A stretch of DNA of 60,375 nucleotides from Vicinamibacteria bacterium (GTDB lineage Bacteria > Acidobacteriota > Vicinamibacteria > Fen-336), in NCBI GenBank assembly GCA_023701125.1, contig JAMPXO010000014.1, positions 1-60,375 of the forward strand. The letters are read 5' to 3'. Below are positions 9,269 through 44,186 of the stretch, piece by piece. The notes beneath the pieces were generated by a model. That model was not told the DNA's origin. It saw only the letters and a list, made by a program, of their open reading frames with translations, and searched no databases. The position numbers and the translations under genes were made by a program. Position 1 is the first letter of the stretch. Each line of letters opens with the position of its first letter.

Positions 9269-9533
9269 TGGCATCCGTCATGCTCGACCCGGGCTGCCTC
9301 GTGGCGGCGGTGTCGTCGGCGGGCAGCTCTACGACGGGCTGATCGCCGCCTGCGCCCGCAAGGCGGGGGTCGAGCTGCTGCTCACCTGGAACGACGCCCA
9401 CTTCCGCCGTTTCGCTGGTGGGGGTTTGGGGGCGGAGGAGCTCCGTTCGCGACGGAGCCCCCATGGGACCGGCGCTGGGCTCCGCCCGGCGCCGGAACCC
9501 GATAGCTTCGACGTGCGGCAGCCCCGGGAGTAG
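9268..9533 (+). pseudogene. VapC PIN-domain toxin remnant carrying repeat copy A
   Basis: The remnant starts MASVMLDPGCLVAAV at ATG 9268, the first strand of a PIN domain with its Asp. Within 50 bases the frame changes, and the C-terminal PIN piece GGQLYDGLIAACARKAGVE and LLLTWNDAHFRRF follows in another frame. The central part of the domain, some 60-80 residues including acidic catalytic residues, is absent. Directly after HFRRF the structured repeat at 9419-9503 continues in the same open frame, and the frame then closes after SFDVRQPRE at TAG 9531-9533. This is a non-functional toxin next to a damaged antitoxin. Confidence 0.7.
9419..9503 (+). repeat. Structured 84-bp repeat, copy A
   Basis: Best-preserved copy of a dispersed element found five times in the window. 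Landmarks: GGGGGTTTGGGGGCGGAGG at the left, GAGCCCCCATGGGACC in the centre, and GGAACCC at the right. It can fold as an outer stem (GGGTT with AACCC) holding two hairpins. H1 closes with GGGGGC/GCCCCC and has an inner TCCGT/ACGGA stem. H2 is CCGGCGCTGGGC, loop TCC, GCCCGGCGCCGG, with 11 Watson-Crick pairs and one wobble. It lies near the 3' end of the vapC remnant and is open in that gene's frame. Confidence 0.8.
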
Positions 9534-11963: not shown

Positions 11964-13121
11964 ATGCCGTACTACCAGAAGCGCGGGAAGCTGCCCCGCA
12001 AGCGCCACGTCGTGTTCCGCGGCGACAGCGGCCAGTTGCTGCCGGAAGAGCTGGTCGGCAACAAGGGCTTCAGCGGGCCGTCGTCGCTGCTGCACCACCT
12101 GCACATGCCGACCGAGCTCAAGCAGGTGCGCGCGTTCCGTGCGCTGGCGTGGCAGCCGGAGGCCGAGCGGCTGGTCAAGCACCGCCACTTCTTCTCCCAC
12201 CGGATCGCGACCGGCCCCTCGCCCGTGCTCGACCGCGTGCCGCTGCTGTTCAACTCCGACGTGGCGATGCAGGTCGTCGCGCCGACGGTCGAGGACGACT
12301 TCTTCTTCCGCAACGCGGAGGGCGACGAGGTCGTCTACGTGGTGGAAGGGGCGGGCTGCCTCGACTCGCCGTTCGGTGCGCTGGCCTTCCGTCCCGGCGA
12401 CTACGTCGTGATCCCGCGCGGCATCGTCCACCGCTGGCGGCTGGGGACGGGCCCGTTCCGCTTCGTCGTGATCGAGAGCCGCGGCGAGGTGCGCCACCCG
12501 AAGCGCTATCTGAACGAGGCCGGCCAGCTCACCGAGAACGCGCCGTTCTCGGAGCGCGACCTGCGGCTGCCGGAGTGGGTGGAGCCGGTGGACGAGAAGG
12601 GCGACTTCCGGGTGCTGGTCAAGCACGGCGACCGGCTCACCGAGCTGGTCTACGCCTGGCACCCGTTCGACGTCGTCGGCTGGGACGGCTACTACTACCC
12701 GCACGCGTTCTCGATCCACGACTTCGAGCCGCGGGTCGCCCGCATCCACCTGCCGCCGCCGGTGCATCAGACCTACGAAGGCGACGGCTGGGTGATCTGC
12801 TCGTTCTGCCCGCGCCCGTTCGACTTCGACCCGGACGCCGTGCCCGCGCCGTACGCGCACCAGAACGTGATGTCGGACGAGGTGCTCTATTACGCGAGTT
12901 CCGAGTTCATGAGCCGCAAGGGCATCGAGCTGGGCTCGGTGACGCTGCACCCCGACGGCCTGCCGCACGGCCCGCAGCCGGGCAGGACCGAGGCTTCGAT
13001 CGGCGCCAGGTGGACGAACGAACTGGCCGTCATGCTCGACACGTTCCGCCCGCTGCACGTGAGCCAGGCCGCGCTCCAGGCGGAGGACGAGGGCTACTGG
13101 CGCTCGTGGCTGGCAGAGTGA
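11964..13121 (+). CDS. hmgA: Homogentisate 1,2-dioxygenase
   Basis: The start ATG 11964 ([11 protein letters not shown]) has GAGGAGGG upstream, and the protein has 385 residues, the size of the bacterial family. It opens the ring of homogentisate to maleylacetoacetate, using Fe(II). The cupin motifs are visible: [26 protein letters not shown], then the metal-binding stretch [18 protein letters not shown] (His and Glu ligands) and the His in [25 protein letters not shown] is typical of the active-site region. It is the first gene of a tyrosine/phenylalanine breakdown operon that continues with an unknown protein and fahA. Confidence 0.93.
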
Positions 13122-13128
13122 GCGTGGC

Positions 13129-13215
13129 GGGGGATTGGGGGCGGAGGAGGCCGGAGTCGTCCGACGGAACCCCCATGGGACCAGCAGCGGGCTCCGCCCG
13201 GTGCTGGAACCCGAT
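13129..13215 (+). repeat. Structured 84-bp repeat, copy B
   Basis: This copy fills nearly the whole gap between hmgA and the next gene. It carries GGGGGATTGGGGGCGGAGGA, AACCCCCATGGGACC and GGAACCC. Hairpin H2 is CCAGCAGCGGGC, loop TCC, GCCCGGTGCTGG. Compared with copy A, G-C pairs 3 and 6 have become A-T on both arms, which is compensatory change. The element contains an ATG (13175) in frame with the downstream gene and stops one base before the likelier start at 13214. Confidence 0.75.
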
Positions 13216-14125
13216 GGTCCCCGCCGCTGCCCAGGCGCTGCTCGCGCGGCTCGTGGACTACGCGGGCCTGTTCCCGCCCGCGGCCCTGGGCATGGCCGAG
13301 GCCGTCGCCGAGTACGCGACGCAGCGGACCTCGGGAGAGTCCTGGATGCTGGGCCGCTTCGTCGTGCCGGCCGCGCGCCTGGCGGAACTGACGGCCGCGT
13401 GCACGTCGCTTTCCACCGTCGCCGGCGCGCCGTCGGAGGCCGACCCCTGGGAGCTCTCGGTACTCGCGGGCGCGGACCTGGTTGCCGATCTCGCCGCGGT
13501 CGCGGCGCTGCCGCCGTGGCTGAAGCTCGACGCGGTGGAGGCCAGGGCCGCGGGGGCCGCCGAGGTCGACGCCGTGCTCGCTGCCTGGTCGTCGGCGCGG
13601 GTGCCCGTCTACGTCGAACTGCCGCTCGGGGGCGACCTCGACGCGGCCCTGATCGCGCTGAAGCGCGGCGGCGGTCGCGCCAAGGTCCGCACCGGCGGCC
13701 TCACCGCCGAGGCGATTCCGCGGCCCGAGGATCTCGCGCGCTTTCTCCGCGCCTGCGCCGCGCACGGCGTCGCGCACAAGGCCACCGCCGGCCTGCACCA
13801 CCCGCTGCGTTCCGAGCGTCCGCTCACCTACGCGCCCGACGCGCCGGTCGGCGTCATGCACGGCTTCGTCAACGTCTTCGCCGCGGCCGCCCTGGCCCGC
13901 ACGGGCGCGCCCGAGGCAGACCTGCTGAGCGTGCTGCACGAGGCGGCCGAGGACGCGTTCGTCTTCGAGGGCGACGCATTGCGGGTCGGCGAGCACCGGC
14001 TCGACGCCGCGACGCTGGCCGCGTCGCGCGCGGAGTTCGCCCTCGGCTTCGGCTCGTGCTCGTTCCGCGAGCCGGTCGCCGACCTGCGCGCCCTCGGCGT
14101 GCTGCCGCGGGTCGTGCCCGCCTGA
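13214..14125 (+). CDS. Unknown protein between hmgA and fahA
   Basis: The protein has 303 residues from ATG 13214 (MVPAAAQALLARLVDYAGLF). An alternative ATG at 13175 inside repeat copy B would add 13 residues. There is no signal peptide. Visible features are an alpha/beta pattern, with strands such as LPPWLKLDAVEAR, VPVYVELPLGGD, RAKVRTGGLTAEAIP and VAHKATAGLHHPLR, an order that suggests a TIM barrel. GLHHPLR and FGSCSFREP near the C-terminus look like active-site loops. I do not recognise a named family. It sits where maleylacetoacetate isomerase, the missing step between HmgA and FahA, is often encoded. It lies 13 bp before fahA, so it is surely cotranscribed. Confidence 0.8.
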   Translation: MVPAAAQALLARLVDYAGLFPPAALGMAEAVAEYATQRTSGESWMLGRFVVPAARLAELTAACTSLSTVAGAPSEADPWELSVLAGADLVADLAAVAALPPWLKLDAVEARAAGAAEVDAVLAAWSSARVPVYVELPLGGDLDAALIALKRGGGRAKVRTGGLTAEAIPRPEDLARFLRACAAHGVAHKATAGLHHPLRSERPLTYAPDAPVGVMHGFVNVFAAAALARTGAPEADLLSVLHEAAEDAFVFEGDALRVGEHRLDAATLAASRAEFALGFGSCSFREPVADLRALGVLPRVVPA

Positions 14126-14138
14126 TTCGGAGGACTGC

Positions 14139-15470
14139 TTGACCGCGCACGTCGACGAGACCCACGACCCGAAGATCCACTCCTTCGTCGAGTCCGCCCA
14201 GGACCCGGCCACCGACTTCCCGCTGCAGAACCTGCCGCTCGGCGTCTTCCGCCGCGCCGGAACGGCCGAGCCTCCGCGGATCGGCATCGCGATCGGGGAC
14301 CGCATCCTCGACCTGCGCGCCTGCCACGAGCGAGGCCTGCTGCGCGGCATGGGCGACCCGGTGCTGGAGGCGGCGCTGGCGCCGAACCTCAACGCCTACC
14401 TGGCGCTGGACGCGCGGCTGCGGCGCACGCTGCGCCACCGCGCGTGGCACCTGCTGCGCGCCGAGGGCGCCCAGGTCACCGCCCGCCCGCACGCGGCCGA
14501 CGTGCTCGTGGCGCAGGCGGACGCGGAGTTGCTGCTGCCGGCGGCGATCGGCGACTACACCGACTTCTACGCCTCGCTGCACCACGCGACCAACGTCGGC
14601 AAGATGCTGCGGCCCGACAACCCGCTGCTGCCGAACTGGAAGTGGATCCCGATCGGCTATCACGGCCGCACCTCGTCGATCGTGCCGTCGGGCGCGCCGG
14701 TGCGCCGGCCGTCGGGACAGACCGAGCCGAAGGACGGCGGCGCCCCGGGCTTCGGGCCGTCGCGCAACCTGGACTACGAGCTGGAGGTCGGCGCCTTCCT
14801 CGGCCCGGGCAACCCGCTCGGCGCGACGATCCCACTGGCTGACGCCGAGCAACACCTCGCGGGGTTGTGCCTGGTCAACGACTGGTCCGCGCGCGACGTG
14901 CAGAAGTGGGAGTACGCGCCGCTCGGCCCGTTCCTGGCCAAGAACTTCGCCACCACGATCAGCCCGTGGCTGGTGACGCTGGAGGCGCTGGCGCCTTTCC
15001 GCGTCGCGCCGGAGCCGCGGGCCGACGGCGACCCGCAGCCGCTGCCGTACCTCGCCGACGAGCGCGACCGCGAGCGCGGCGGCTTCGACGTGGCGTTGCG
15101 AGTCGAGCTGCGCACGAAGGCGATGCGCGAGCGCGGCCTTGTACCGTTCGTCGTCTCGACCTCCAACCTGCGCGACCTGTACTGGACGCTCGGCCAGATG
15201 GTCGCCCACCACGCGAGCGGCGGCTGCAACCTGCGGCCGGGCGACCTGATCGCGACCGGCACCGTGTCGGGCCCGGCGCCGGAGAACCGCGCCTGCCTGC
15301 TCGAGCGCACCTGGCGCGGCTCGGAGCCGCTGACCCTGCCCTCGGGCGAGGTGCGCCGCTTCCTCGAAGACGGCGACGAGATCAACCTGCGCGGGCGTTG
15401 CCTTCGCGACGGCTTCCGCGCCATCGGCTTCGGCGAGTGCCGGGGCGAGATCCTGCCGGTGCAACCATGA
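14139..15470 (+). CDS. fahA: Fumarylacetoacetase
   Basis: The gene starts at TTG 14139, chosen because TCGGAGGA lies just upstream, and encodes 443 residues. It hydrolyses fumarylacetoacetate to fumarate and acetoacetate, the last step of tyrosine degradation. The N-terminal SH3-like domain is followed by the catalytic domain with [17 protein letters not shown] (calcium ligand Asp and catalytic His), [21 protein letters not shown] (Glu ligands), [22 protein letters not shown] and GTVSGPAP. Length and motifs match the animal-type FAH family. The TGA overlaps the ATG of the next gene (ATGA), so the mutase large subunit is translated from the same message. Confidence 0.95.
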
Positions 15471-42677: not shown

Positions 42678-44186
42678 GTGCCCGTAGCCGACGCCGATCG
42701 CGGTCTCGCCGCCCTCCTCGCCGTCGCCGAGGCGTTCCCGCCGCAGCGCGGCGTGGCGGAGGCCCTGGCCGACGTCCTGCGCGGCGTGATCGAGGCGATG
42801 GGTGCCGACGGCGGCGCGCTGATGGTGCGCGACGCGGGCGAGCCGTGCCTCGCCGAGCAGGGCCTCACCGCCGAGTCGCGCCGCGAGGAGGTGCTCGACG
42901 CGCTGCGACTGGCGGTGGAGGGCGGCAGTGCCTGGGTCGCCGGCCGCGAGGGCGGCGGCTGGGTGGGCGCGGCGCCGGTGGGCTCCGCCGACGGCCCGTA
43001 CGGGGGTTTGGGGGCGGAAGAGCCCGGTGGCGACGTAGCCCCCATGGGACCGGCGACGGGCTCCGCCCGGCGTCGGAACCCGATGGGCGGCCTGGCGCTG
43101 ACCGGCCCCGTCGGCGTGCCGATGGCCGCACTGCTGCAGGCGCTGGCCCGCCAGCTCGAGCTCTCGCTCGAGGCGGCTCACCGCTTCGCCGAGCTGCGCG
43201 CGGCCGCCTCCCGCATCAACCTCGCCAACCGCATGACGGCCGCCATCACCAGCGGCTCCGACCCGCGCGCCGCGATGCCCGGCTTCGCCCGCGAGCTGAA
43301 GGGCTTCGTCGAGTTCGACCGCCTGGCCTGCGCCTTCGTCAACGACTCGGGCGACTACATCGAGGTCTGCGGCTACCCCGACCAGTCGTCGTGGGGGATC
43401 GGCGACGTGATCCCCGTGGTCGGCAGCGGCCCCGGCTCGGTCGTGATGGAGGACCGCGCCTTCGTGGTCACCGACCTGCTGCACCAGCACCGCTTCATCG
43501 AGGACATGCGGCTGCTGGAAGAGGGGCTGCGCTCGTACATGCTGCTGCCACTCAACGCCCGCGGCCGCACGGTCGGCGCGCTGGCGATCGGCTCCGACAC
43601 GGAGAACGTCTACGGCGAAGACGACGTCGCCCGCCTGCAGCCGCTGGTCGACCACGCGGCGCTGGCCTTCGACAACGTGCGGCTGCTGCAGAAGAGCCGC
43701 GAGCTGTCGATCACCGACGAGCTGACGCCGCTGTACAACGCCCGCTTCTTCCACCAGATCCTCGAACGCGAGATCAAGCTGGTCGACCGCTACAAGTCGG
43801 TGCTGTCGGTGGTGTTCATCGACCTCGACCGTTTCAAGCCGGTCAACGACAAGTGGGGCCACCTGCGCGGCAGCCGCGTGCTGCGCGAGGTCGGCTTCCT
43901 GCTGCGCAGCGCGGTGCGCGAGACCGACTACCCGGTGCGCTACGGTGGCGACGAGTTCTGCGTGATCCTGCCGCAGACCGACGGGCCGGCTGCGCGCGCC
44001 CTGTCGGAGAAGCTGCGCTCGATGGTCGAGGAGCACATCTACCTGCAGGAAGAGGGGATCAACGTCCGCGTCGGCGCCTCGCTGGGCATCGCCTCCTATC
44101 CGGAAGAGGCGAAATCGAAGGAAGCCCTGATCCGGCTGGCCGACGAGCGCATGTACCAGGACAAGGGAGAACGCCACACCCGATGA
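42678..44186 (+). CDS. GAF-GAF-GGDEF diguanylate cyclase, first GAF split by repeat copy C
   Basis: The 502-residue protein starts at GTG 42678. An N-terminal GAF-like domain (about 1-180) is interrupted at residues about 108-136 by the structured repeat. It reads GAAPVGSADG on one side and GGLALTGPVG on the other, which look like neighbouring strands. A second GAF domain spans about 205-345 (FARELKGFVEFDRLACAFV). The GGDEF domain has DELTPLYNARFFHQILE, FIDLDRFKPVNDKWGH and RYGGDEFCVILP, with the active site intact. RETD five residues before it fits the inhibitory I-site. It should make c-di-GMP. The stop overlaps pepE. Confidence 0.92.
   Translation: MPVADADRGLAALLAVAEAFPPQRGVAEALADVLRGVIEAMGADGGALMVRDAGEPCLAEQGLTAESRREEVLDALRLAVEGGSAWVAGREGGGWVGAAPVGSADGPYGGLGAEEPGGDVAPMGPATGSARRRNPMGGLALTGPVGVPMAALLQALARQLELSLEAAHRFAELRAAASRINLANRMTAAITSGSDPRAAMPGFARELKGFVEFDRLACAFVNDSGDYIEVCGYPDQSSWGIGDVIPVVGSGPGSVVMEDRAFVVTDLLHQHRFIEDMRLLEEGLRSYMLLPLNARGRTVGALAIGSDTENVYGEDDVARLQPLVDHAALAFDNVRLLQKSRELSITDELTPLYNARFFHQILEREIKLVDRYKSVLSVVFIDLDRFKPVNDKWGHLRGSRVLREVGFLLRSAVRETDYPVRYGGDEFCVILPQTDGPAARALSEKLRSMVEEHIYLQEEGINVRVGASLGIASYPEEAKSKEALIRLADERMYQDKGERHTR
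43001..43084 (+). repeat. Structured 84-bp repeat, copy C, in frame in a GGDEF gene
   Basis: This copy is exactly 84 bases, so it adds 28 codons without shifting the frame. It has GGGGGTTTGGGGGCGGAAGA, TAGCCCCCATGGGACC and GGAACCC. H2 is CCGGCGACGGGC, loop TCC, GCCCGGCGTCGG. The translation gives a Gly/Ala/Pro-rich insert that does not look like GAF sequence. The TAG in it falls out of frame. Confidence 0.8.

Follow-up and report, generated by a model that had tools for sequence, protein, structure and literature searches.

We propose that the 303-residue protein encoded between hmgA and fahA in this stretch of DNA, here called X, is a maleylacetoacetate isomerase that works without glutathione and is unrelated to the zeta-class glutathione transferase MaiA; we put the probability of this reading at roughly 0.7. 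The assignment of the reaction draws on genomic context: X would turn the cis product of homogentisate dioxygenase (HGD) into fumarylacetoacetate for FahA. An earlier note on this DNA had taken X as a candidate non-homologous isomerase, and we find support for that idea in the co-occurrence of X with fahA, without maiA, in several phyla, the reaction itself still being one that context suggests. How X would carry out the reaction we infer with less confidence than the reaction.

The locus and the family of X

In the window, meaning the whole 60,375-nucleotide stretch analysed here, hmgA, X and fahA follow one another on the same strand (Table 1). The protein that the earlier note placed between the two pathway genes is confirmed as an open reading frame of 303 codons and a stop; its G+C content at the three codon positions (0.81/0.55/0.94) has a coding-like pattern and resembles that of the neighbour genes, and the frame is preserved in homologs at 66% identity and below. 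The spacing to fahA is as tight as had been claimed, with 13 nt between the X stop and the fahA start if the latter is the TTG at 14139. The product of fahA is a regular fumarylacetoacetase (521.7 bits against TIGR01266, cut-off 375.3). For hmgA, the reading frame 11832-13121 matches Pfam HgmA_N (1.3e-12), and the ATG at 11964 is its likely start by comparison with a 385-residue Bacillus protein; against TIGR01015 it scores E 3.9e-18 and 65 bits, where the cut-off is 511. This divergent HGD, far under the NCBI hmgA cut-off, is of a type common to the X operons of Bacillaceae and archaea, whose HGDs are 47-56% identical to it. A tblastn search found no HPPD in the window. The next gene downstream, a methylmalonyl-CoA mutase gene (PF01642, 15467-17071), begins at the end of fahA.

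Table 1. Positions of the pathway genes and of candidate catalytic codons of X in the window
Feature	Position	Strand	Remark
hmgA, homogentisate 1,2-dioxygenase, divergent 385-residue type	11964..13121	+	frame open from 11832; start inferred
X, proposed glutathione-independent maleylacetoacetate isomerase, 303 aa, predicted DERA-like TIM barrel	13214..14125	+	
Codon of invariant Lys157, candidate Schiff-base lysine	13682..13684	+	
Codon of invariant Lys189, candidate second catalytic lysine	13778..13780	+	
Codon of invariant Cys282, candidate nucleophile, directly after the last predicted strand	14057..14059	+	
fahA, fumarylacetoacetase, canonical two-domain	14139..15470	+	

The 92 nt from the hmgA stop to the X start are occupied by one copy (13131-13217) of a dispersed repeat of about 86 bp, and this copy includes the X ATG. 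Two more copies of the repeat lie on the + strand of the window, at 9419-9505 and 43002-43086; their core differs by at most three mismatches between copies, against 0.00 such cases expected by chance. The repeat strand folds into hairpins (z -2.6, -4.6 and -0.9), the last of which carries paired changes between copies. There is no Rfam match to the repeat, and its core is absent from all other fetched loci except a duplicate of the window (L079).

Searches with X itself found nothing in Pfam at E<=10, in NCBIfam at E<=1 or among PDB sequences at E<=1, and a viral library gave nothing at E<=0.001. A PDB sequence search with the X profile returned one chance-like 4-alpha-glucanotransferase (E 0.14), which we dropped. 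Relatives were found in 77 cases by one scan of species genomes; they span several bacterial phyla and the archaea and belong, by record title, to Acidobacteriota, planctomycetes, Bacillaceae and other Firmicutes, Chloroflexi, Bacteroidetes, Ignavibacteria, two euryarchaeal bins and others, the best named relative being an acidobacterial bin locus (L002) at 66% identity. From the relatives we assembled a family of 83 sequences, leaving out one duplicate of the window (L079), one of L002 (L080) and four loci that are cut off (L066, L070, L050 and L042); L001 and L080 were left out of the clustering. Scanned singly, the 83 members gave scattered weak matches only in Pfam (E<=1) and NCBIfam (E<=10). 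Plasmids add 23 records by tblastn (Streptomyces 11, Priestia 6, Pseudonocardia 2, Rhodococcus 2, Kovacikia 1, Nonomuraea 1); in the best 20 of these, X is named 'hypothetical protein' in 18, and the other two have no listed gene. The family thus carries no Pfam or NCBIfam name and is 'hypothetical' in public records, so that the known unrelated function which the earlier note said would refute its idea was not found. The literature on an alternative maleylacetoacetate isomerase and on the mycothiol-dependent enzyme, as far as it was covered, names the X family nowhere; subscription journals and preprints fall mostly outside this scope, and prior work may exist.

Genomic company of X and the absence of maiA

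When neighbours are labelled by blastp with queries from the window, the Bacillus group and Acidobacteriota, at least one of fahA, HGD and HPPD accompanies X in 64 of the 77 loci, as in an operon of the homogentisate pathway. Individually, fahA is present in 63/77, HGD in 38/77 and HPPD in 27/77, and all three in 26/77. None of them is seen in 13 loci, nine of which are planctomycete; for 12 of these we searched the whole genome and found fumarylacetoacetase elsewhere in 11, the exception being G282 (L070). The order of the genes varies: hpd-X-fahA-hmgA in Bacillaceae, and hpd-hmgA-X-fahA in archaeal, Chloroflexi and many Acidobacteriota loci. On plasmids we find hppD-X-fahA-hisC-HGD-permease in a Priestia record, HGD-X-fahA-CoA transferase A/B in one Streptomyces record, X-fahA in another, and HGD-X-fahA in Pseudonocardia. 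Partners that stay the same while gene order changes from phylum to phylum are strong evidence that a single pathway is at work.

Co-occurrence at the level of whole genomes, a check proposed in the earlier note, gives the same answer: in several phyla the X family goes with fumarylacetoacetase in genomes lacking maiA. Among 199 Acidobacteriota genomes, X is found in 34, fumarylacetoacetase in 42 and both in 33, so that fumarylacetoacetase accompanies 33/34 X genomes versus 9/165 others (Fisher p 3e-28). In the sole X genome that lacks it (G234), X sits on a contig of 3 kb and His195, Ser283 and Pro287 are altered. In a Bacteroidetes sample of 198 genomes (the phylum of L065, named by record title), fumarylacetoacetase is present in 75 and X in 30, all of them inside the 75 (30/30 X genomes versus 45/168 others, Fisher p 3e-15). 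Both p values overstate the association because shared ancestry is ignored; the repetition of the pattern in separate phyla is independent of them. In addition, among 50 X-bearing genomes taken from those behind the 77 loci, 49 have fumarylacetoacetase (47 over cut-off).

A regular maiA elsewhere in the genome, which the earlier note had suggested looking for, did not turn up: in the whole genome of the organism (5.4 Mb, 95.2% complete, 254 contigs) the best match to TIGR01262 reaches only E 0.27 and 12 bits. The same holds more widely. One of the 199 Acidobacteriota genomes (G239) has maiA over cut-off, and it has neither X nor fumarylacetoacetase; below cut-off, at E<=1e-10, 30 more have a match, three of them X-bearing (G089, G123, G198). 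No maiA is found in the 198 Bacteroidetes genomes at E<=1e-20, nor in the 50 X-bearing genomes behind the loci at E<=1e-10. A 298-genome sample of the class of L043, titled Alphaproteobacteria and also including the planctomycete genomes of L028 and L063, has X in 68 genomes and maiA over cut-off in none, the one weak match being in a genome that lacks X. Taken over all the X-bearing genomes tested (the organism's own and those of the Acidobacteriota, Bacteroidetes, L043-class and locus sets), none has maiA over cut-off. Run as a control on 14 genomes, the same search puts one of them, Caulobacter, over the maiA cut-off.

The X family is not universal among fumarylacetoacetase genomes that lack maiA. 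Fumarylacetoacetase occurs with neither X nor over-cut-off maiA in 9/42 Acidobacteriota and 45/75 genomes of the Bacteroidetes sample, from which it follows that the pathway may run without a dedicated isomerase or with a third one. In the X-less fahA regions we examined (all nine in Acidobacteriota and 20 of the 45 in Bacteroidetes) no obvious isomerase lies near fahA; HPPD or HGD is nearby in several of them (L090, L092-L098, L113, L128). Four kinds of fahA neighbour in X-less genomes were considered as isomerase candidates and dropped: phenylalanine hydroxylase, a dimethylargininase-like protein, an AraC-type regulator and a protein read from its sequence as serine hydroxymethyltransferase. 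Separately, a flavin-reductase-like protein of about 290 aa lies near fahA in 4 of the 20 Bacteroidetes loci without X or maiA (L113, L123, L127, L128), and the three of these proteins that were scanned have PF01613. This protein may point to yet another variant of the route.

These genomes bear on the question of whether X acts on the same intermediates in another job, such as the keto-enol tautomerisation of maleyl- or fumarylacetoacetate or the removal of a damaging side product, with the cis-trans step occurring spontaneously or by cellular thiols. The existence of genomes with neither isomerase would fit such a scheme, and a Schiff-base barrel could serve tautomerisation. Against it, only the isomerase lacks a gene in operons that are otherwise complete, and to our knowledge the classical pathway needs no tautomerisation or side-product removal. 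We consider this combined scheme unlikely, and keep to isomerisation as the probable role of X.

Predicted barrel, conserved residues and a possible mechanism

The earlier guess that X is a TIM barrel finds support in an AlphaFold2 model built on the 83-row alignment (mean pLDDT 97.5, pTM 0.94), with the strands and helices predicted in the order of such a barrel. Comparison of the model by VIA-align places entries of the deoxyribose-phosphate aldolase (DERA) type, including designed enzymes on a DERA scaffold, in the first 47 of the best 50 matches, with Z from 14.8 down to 12.5 and the first other family at 11.9; the best DERA match has an rmsd of 3.4 A over 213 aligned residues. For the model of a Neobacillus (Bacillus-group) homolog, built on a 50-row alignment (mean pLDDT 92.7), DERA takes the first 11 matches at Z 13.1 to 11.3 (top match 3.7 A, 218 aligned), and the first non-DERA match also has Z 11.3, so that the lead of DERA is smaller than for X. 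Foldseek gives weak matches to the X model, with IMP dehydrogenase at the top (E 1.4e-4, TM 0.32) and DERA not ranked first. On the Z scores, X is predicted to have a DERA-type barrel, DERA being the closest solved fold to both models, and X and E. coli DeoC each have an Asp at the barrel start (D15 and D16). The differences are that X exceeds the 259 aa of E. coli DeoC by about 45 residues, that it has GSCS where DERA has GASS, which we take to be the phosphate site, and that its companions in genomes are tyrosine breakdown genes. Membership of the DeoC family is ruled out: none of the 83 members is listed there at the Pfam and NCBIfam thresholds given above, and a profile-profile alignment of X with nine DeoC sequences (hhalign) is not significant, at probability 1.1% and E 0.048. 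The one segment of this non-significant alignment pairs Lys157 and Lys189 with K167 and K201 of E. coli DeoC, presumably its Schiff-base lysine and second lysine.

X is likewise not a member of two families of known isomerases. With MaiA/GSTZ1 (zeta-class, TIGR01262) it shares the proposed reaction and the place in pathway and operon; none of the 83 members matches TIGR01262 at E<=10, and X is a predicted barrel of about 300 residues, whereas MaiA has about 210 (TIGR01262 model length 211) and the fold of a glutathione transferase. The mycothiol-dependent maleylpyruvate isomerase of the gentisate pathway is a non-MaiA cis-trans isomerase, and X resembles it in being non-MaiA and in the proposed cis-trans isomerisation of a ring-cleavage product. 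No match to the Pfam family of that enzyme is found for X at E<=10 or for the 83 members at E<=1, which rules out this membership as well. At one locus (L148) a protein with the mycothiol-dependent isomerase domain is encoded by a separate gene, a few genes from X.

Glu135, Lys157, Arg159, Lys189, His195, Asn220 and Cys282 are invariant in 83/83 members and are also present in 11/11 further members, down to about 25% identity. In all, 18 positions are invariant, and these seven are the charged, His, Asn or Cys residues among them. In the model, Lys157 lies in strand 155-159, Lys189 in strand 188-191 and Glu109 in strand 103-111, with Glu135 at the end of strand 132-135 and Cys282 directly after strand 276-281; these are predicted positions at which the active site of a barrel would be expected. 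Such a set of residues at or next to the predicted strands argues against a purely supporting role, in which X would assist or stabilise FahA or HmgA without catalysis, as does an intact copy that is unlinked to fahA (L108). We regard that role as most improbable, even with the tight spacing and near-constant adjacency to fahA that speak for it.

The Bacteroidetes, for which 13 of the 30 X loci were fetched, hold a distinct set of copies. In six of the 30 (L100-L105), which show no linkage to fahA, both lysines are retained but Arg159, His195 and Cys282 are gone; at His195, five have other residues, two of these Ile. We read these six as a subfamily that has changed or is decaying, and setting them aside leaves X in 24/75 fumarylacetoacetase genomes of the sample. 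The other fetched copies (L106-L112) have Lys157, Arg159, Lys189, His195 and Cys282 in 7/7, and five of them lie beside or near fahA.

That both lysines persist in copies that have lost the remainder of the site, together with a predicted fold closest to DERA, would suit an aldolase-type carbon-carbon lyase acting in a side branch of aromatic breakdown and not on maleylacetoacetate. Its constant partners in several phyla, however, are fumarylacetoacetase, HGD and HPPD, the final cleavage of the tyrosine pathway is already done by FahA, and the GASS of DERA is GSCS in X. A lyase of this kind therefore seems very unlikely to us.

For X as an isomerase, the form that we hold most likely overall, and still only tentatively, is a DERA-like lysine-plus-cysteine mechanism. 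In it, Lys157 would form a Schiff base with a ketone of maleylacetoacetate, giving an iminium at C4 or C6; Cys282 would add reversibly to the conjugated iminium at C2, the former double bond would turn, and elimination would yield the trans isomer. Lys189, Glu109, Glu135 and His195/His196 may move protons, and Arg159 and Arg199 may hold the carboxylates. MaiA uses glutathione as the nucleophile, and the addition of the cysteine to C2 would stand in for it in X. This cysteine/iminium step is chemically plausible; Michael addition via an iminium has been engineered into DERA, judging by the titles of entries 7p75 and 7p76.

The nucleophile might instead be a low-molecular-weight thiol (bacillithiol, mycothiol or another), with Cys282 and the lysines only shaping the site. 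Members of the family do occur in Bacillaceae and Actinomycetes, groups known for bacillithiol and mycothiol. Cys282, however, is kept invariant in archaea, Acidobacteriota, planctomycetes, Bacillaceae and Actinomycetes alike, and we know of no single thiol that these groups share. An isomerase with such a free thiol is in our view improbable.

Significance for tyrosine breakdown without MaiA

The gap that X would fill appears in work on Bacillus. In the consulted part of PMC4457819, the maleylacetoacetate isomerase gene of Bacillus anthracis is said to be one that cannot be identified, and a maleylacetoacetate hydrolase is reported in some Bacillus. The consulted part of PMC6193087 likewise describes the isomerase gene of B. 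thuringiensis as not identifiable, and gives its operon hppD-fahA-hmgA as about 3.9 kb; by the named sizes in that excerpt, this would accommodate a short FahA at most and no X, and the cereus group thus seems unlike the Bacillaceae with X. Perhaps the short hydrolase of the cereus group takes the cis substrate directly. X would then explain not the gap in B. anthracis and B. thuringiensis but the same gap in their relatives. For Rhodococcus, the consulted part of PMC11889516 names no isomerase gene in the organism.

It is conceivable, if somewhat doubtful, that X represents an enzyme family new to a long-known step, a barrel working through a Schiff base whose own cysteine replaces glutathione in bacteria and archaea without MaiA. 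If the mechanism is true, X would be a natural case in which a lysine iminium and a cysteine together catalyse a cis-trans isomerisation. If the reaction is true, X would fill a gap that the Bacillus papers state openly and would assign a function to a widely distributed family that Pfam and NCBIfam leave unnamed. Reading X as this isomerase makes it testable how organisms without MaiA complete the breakdown of tyrosine.
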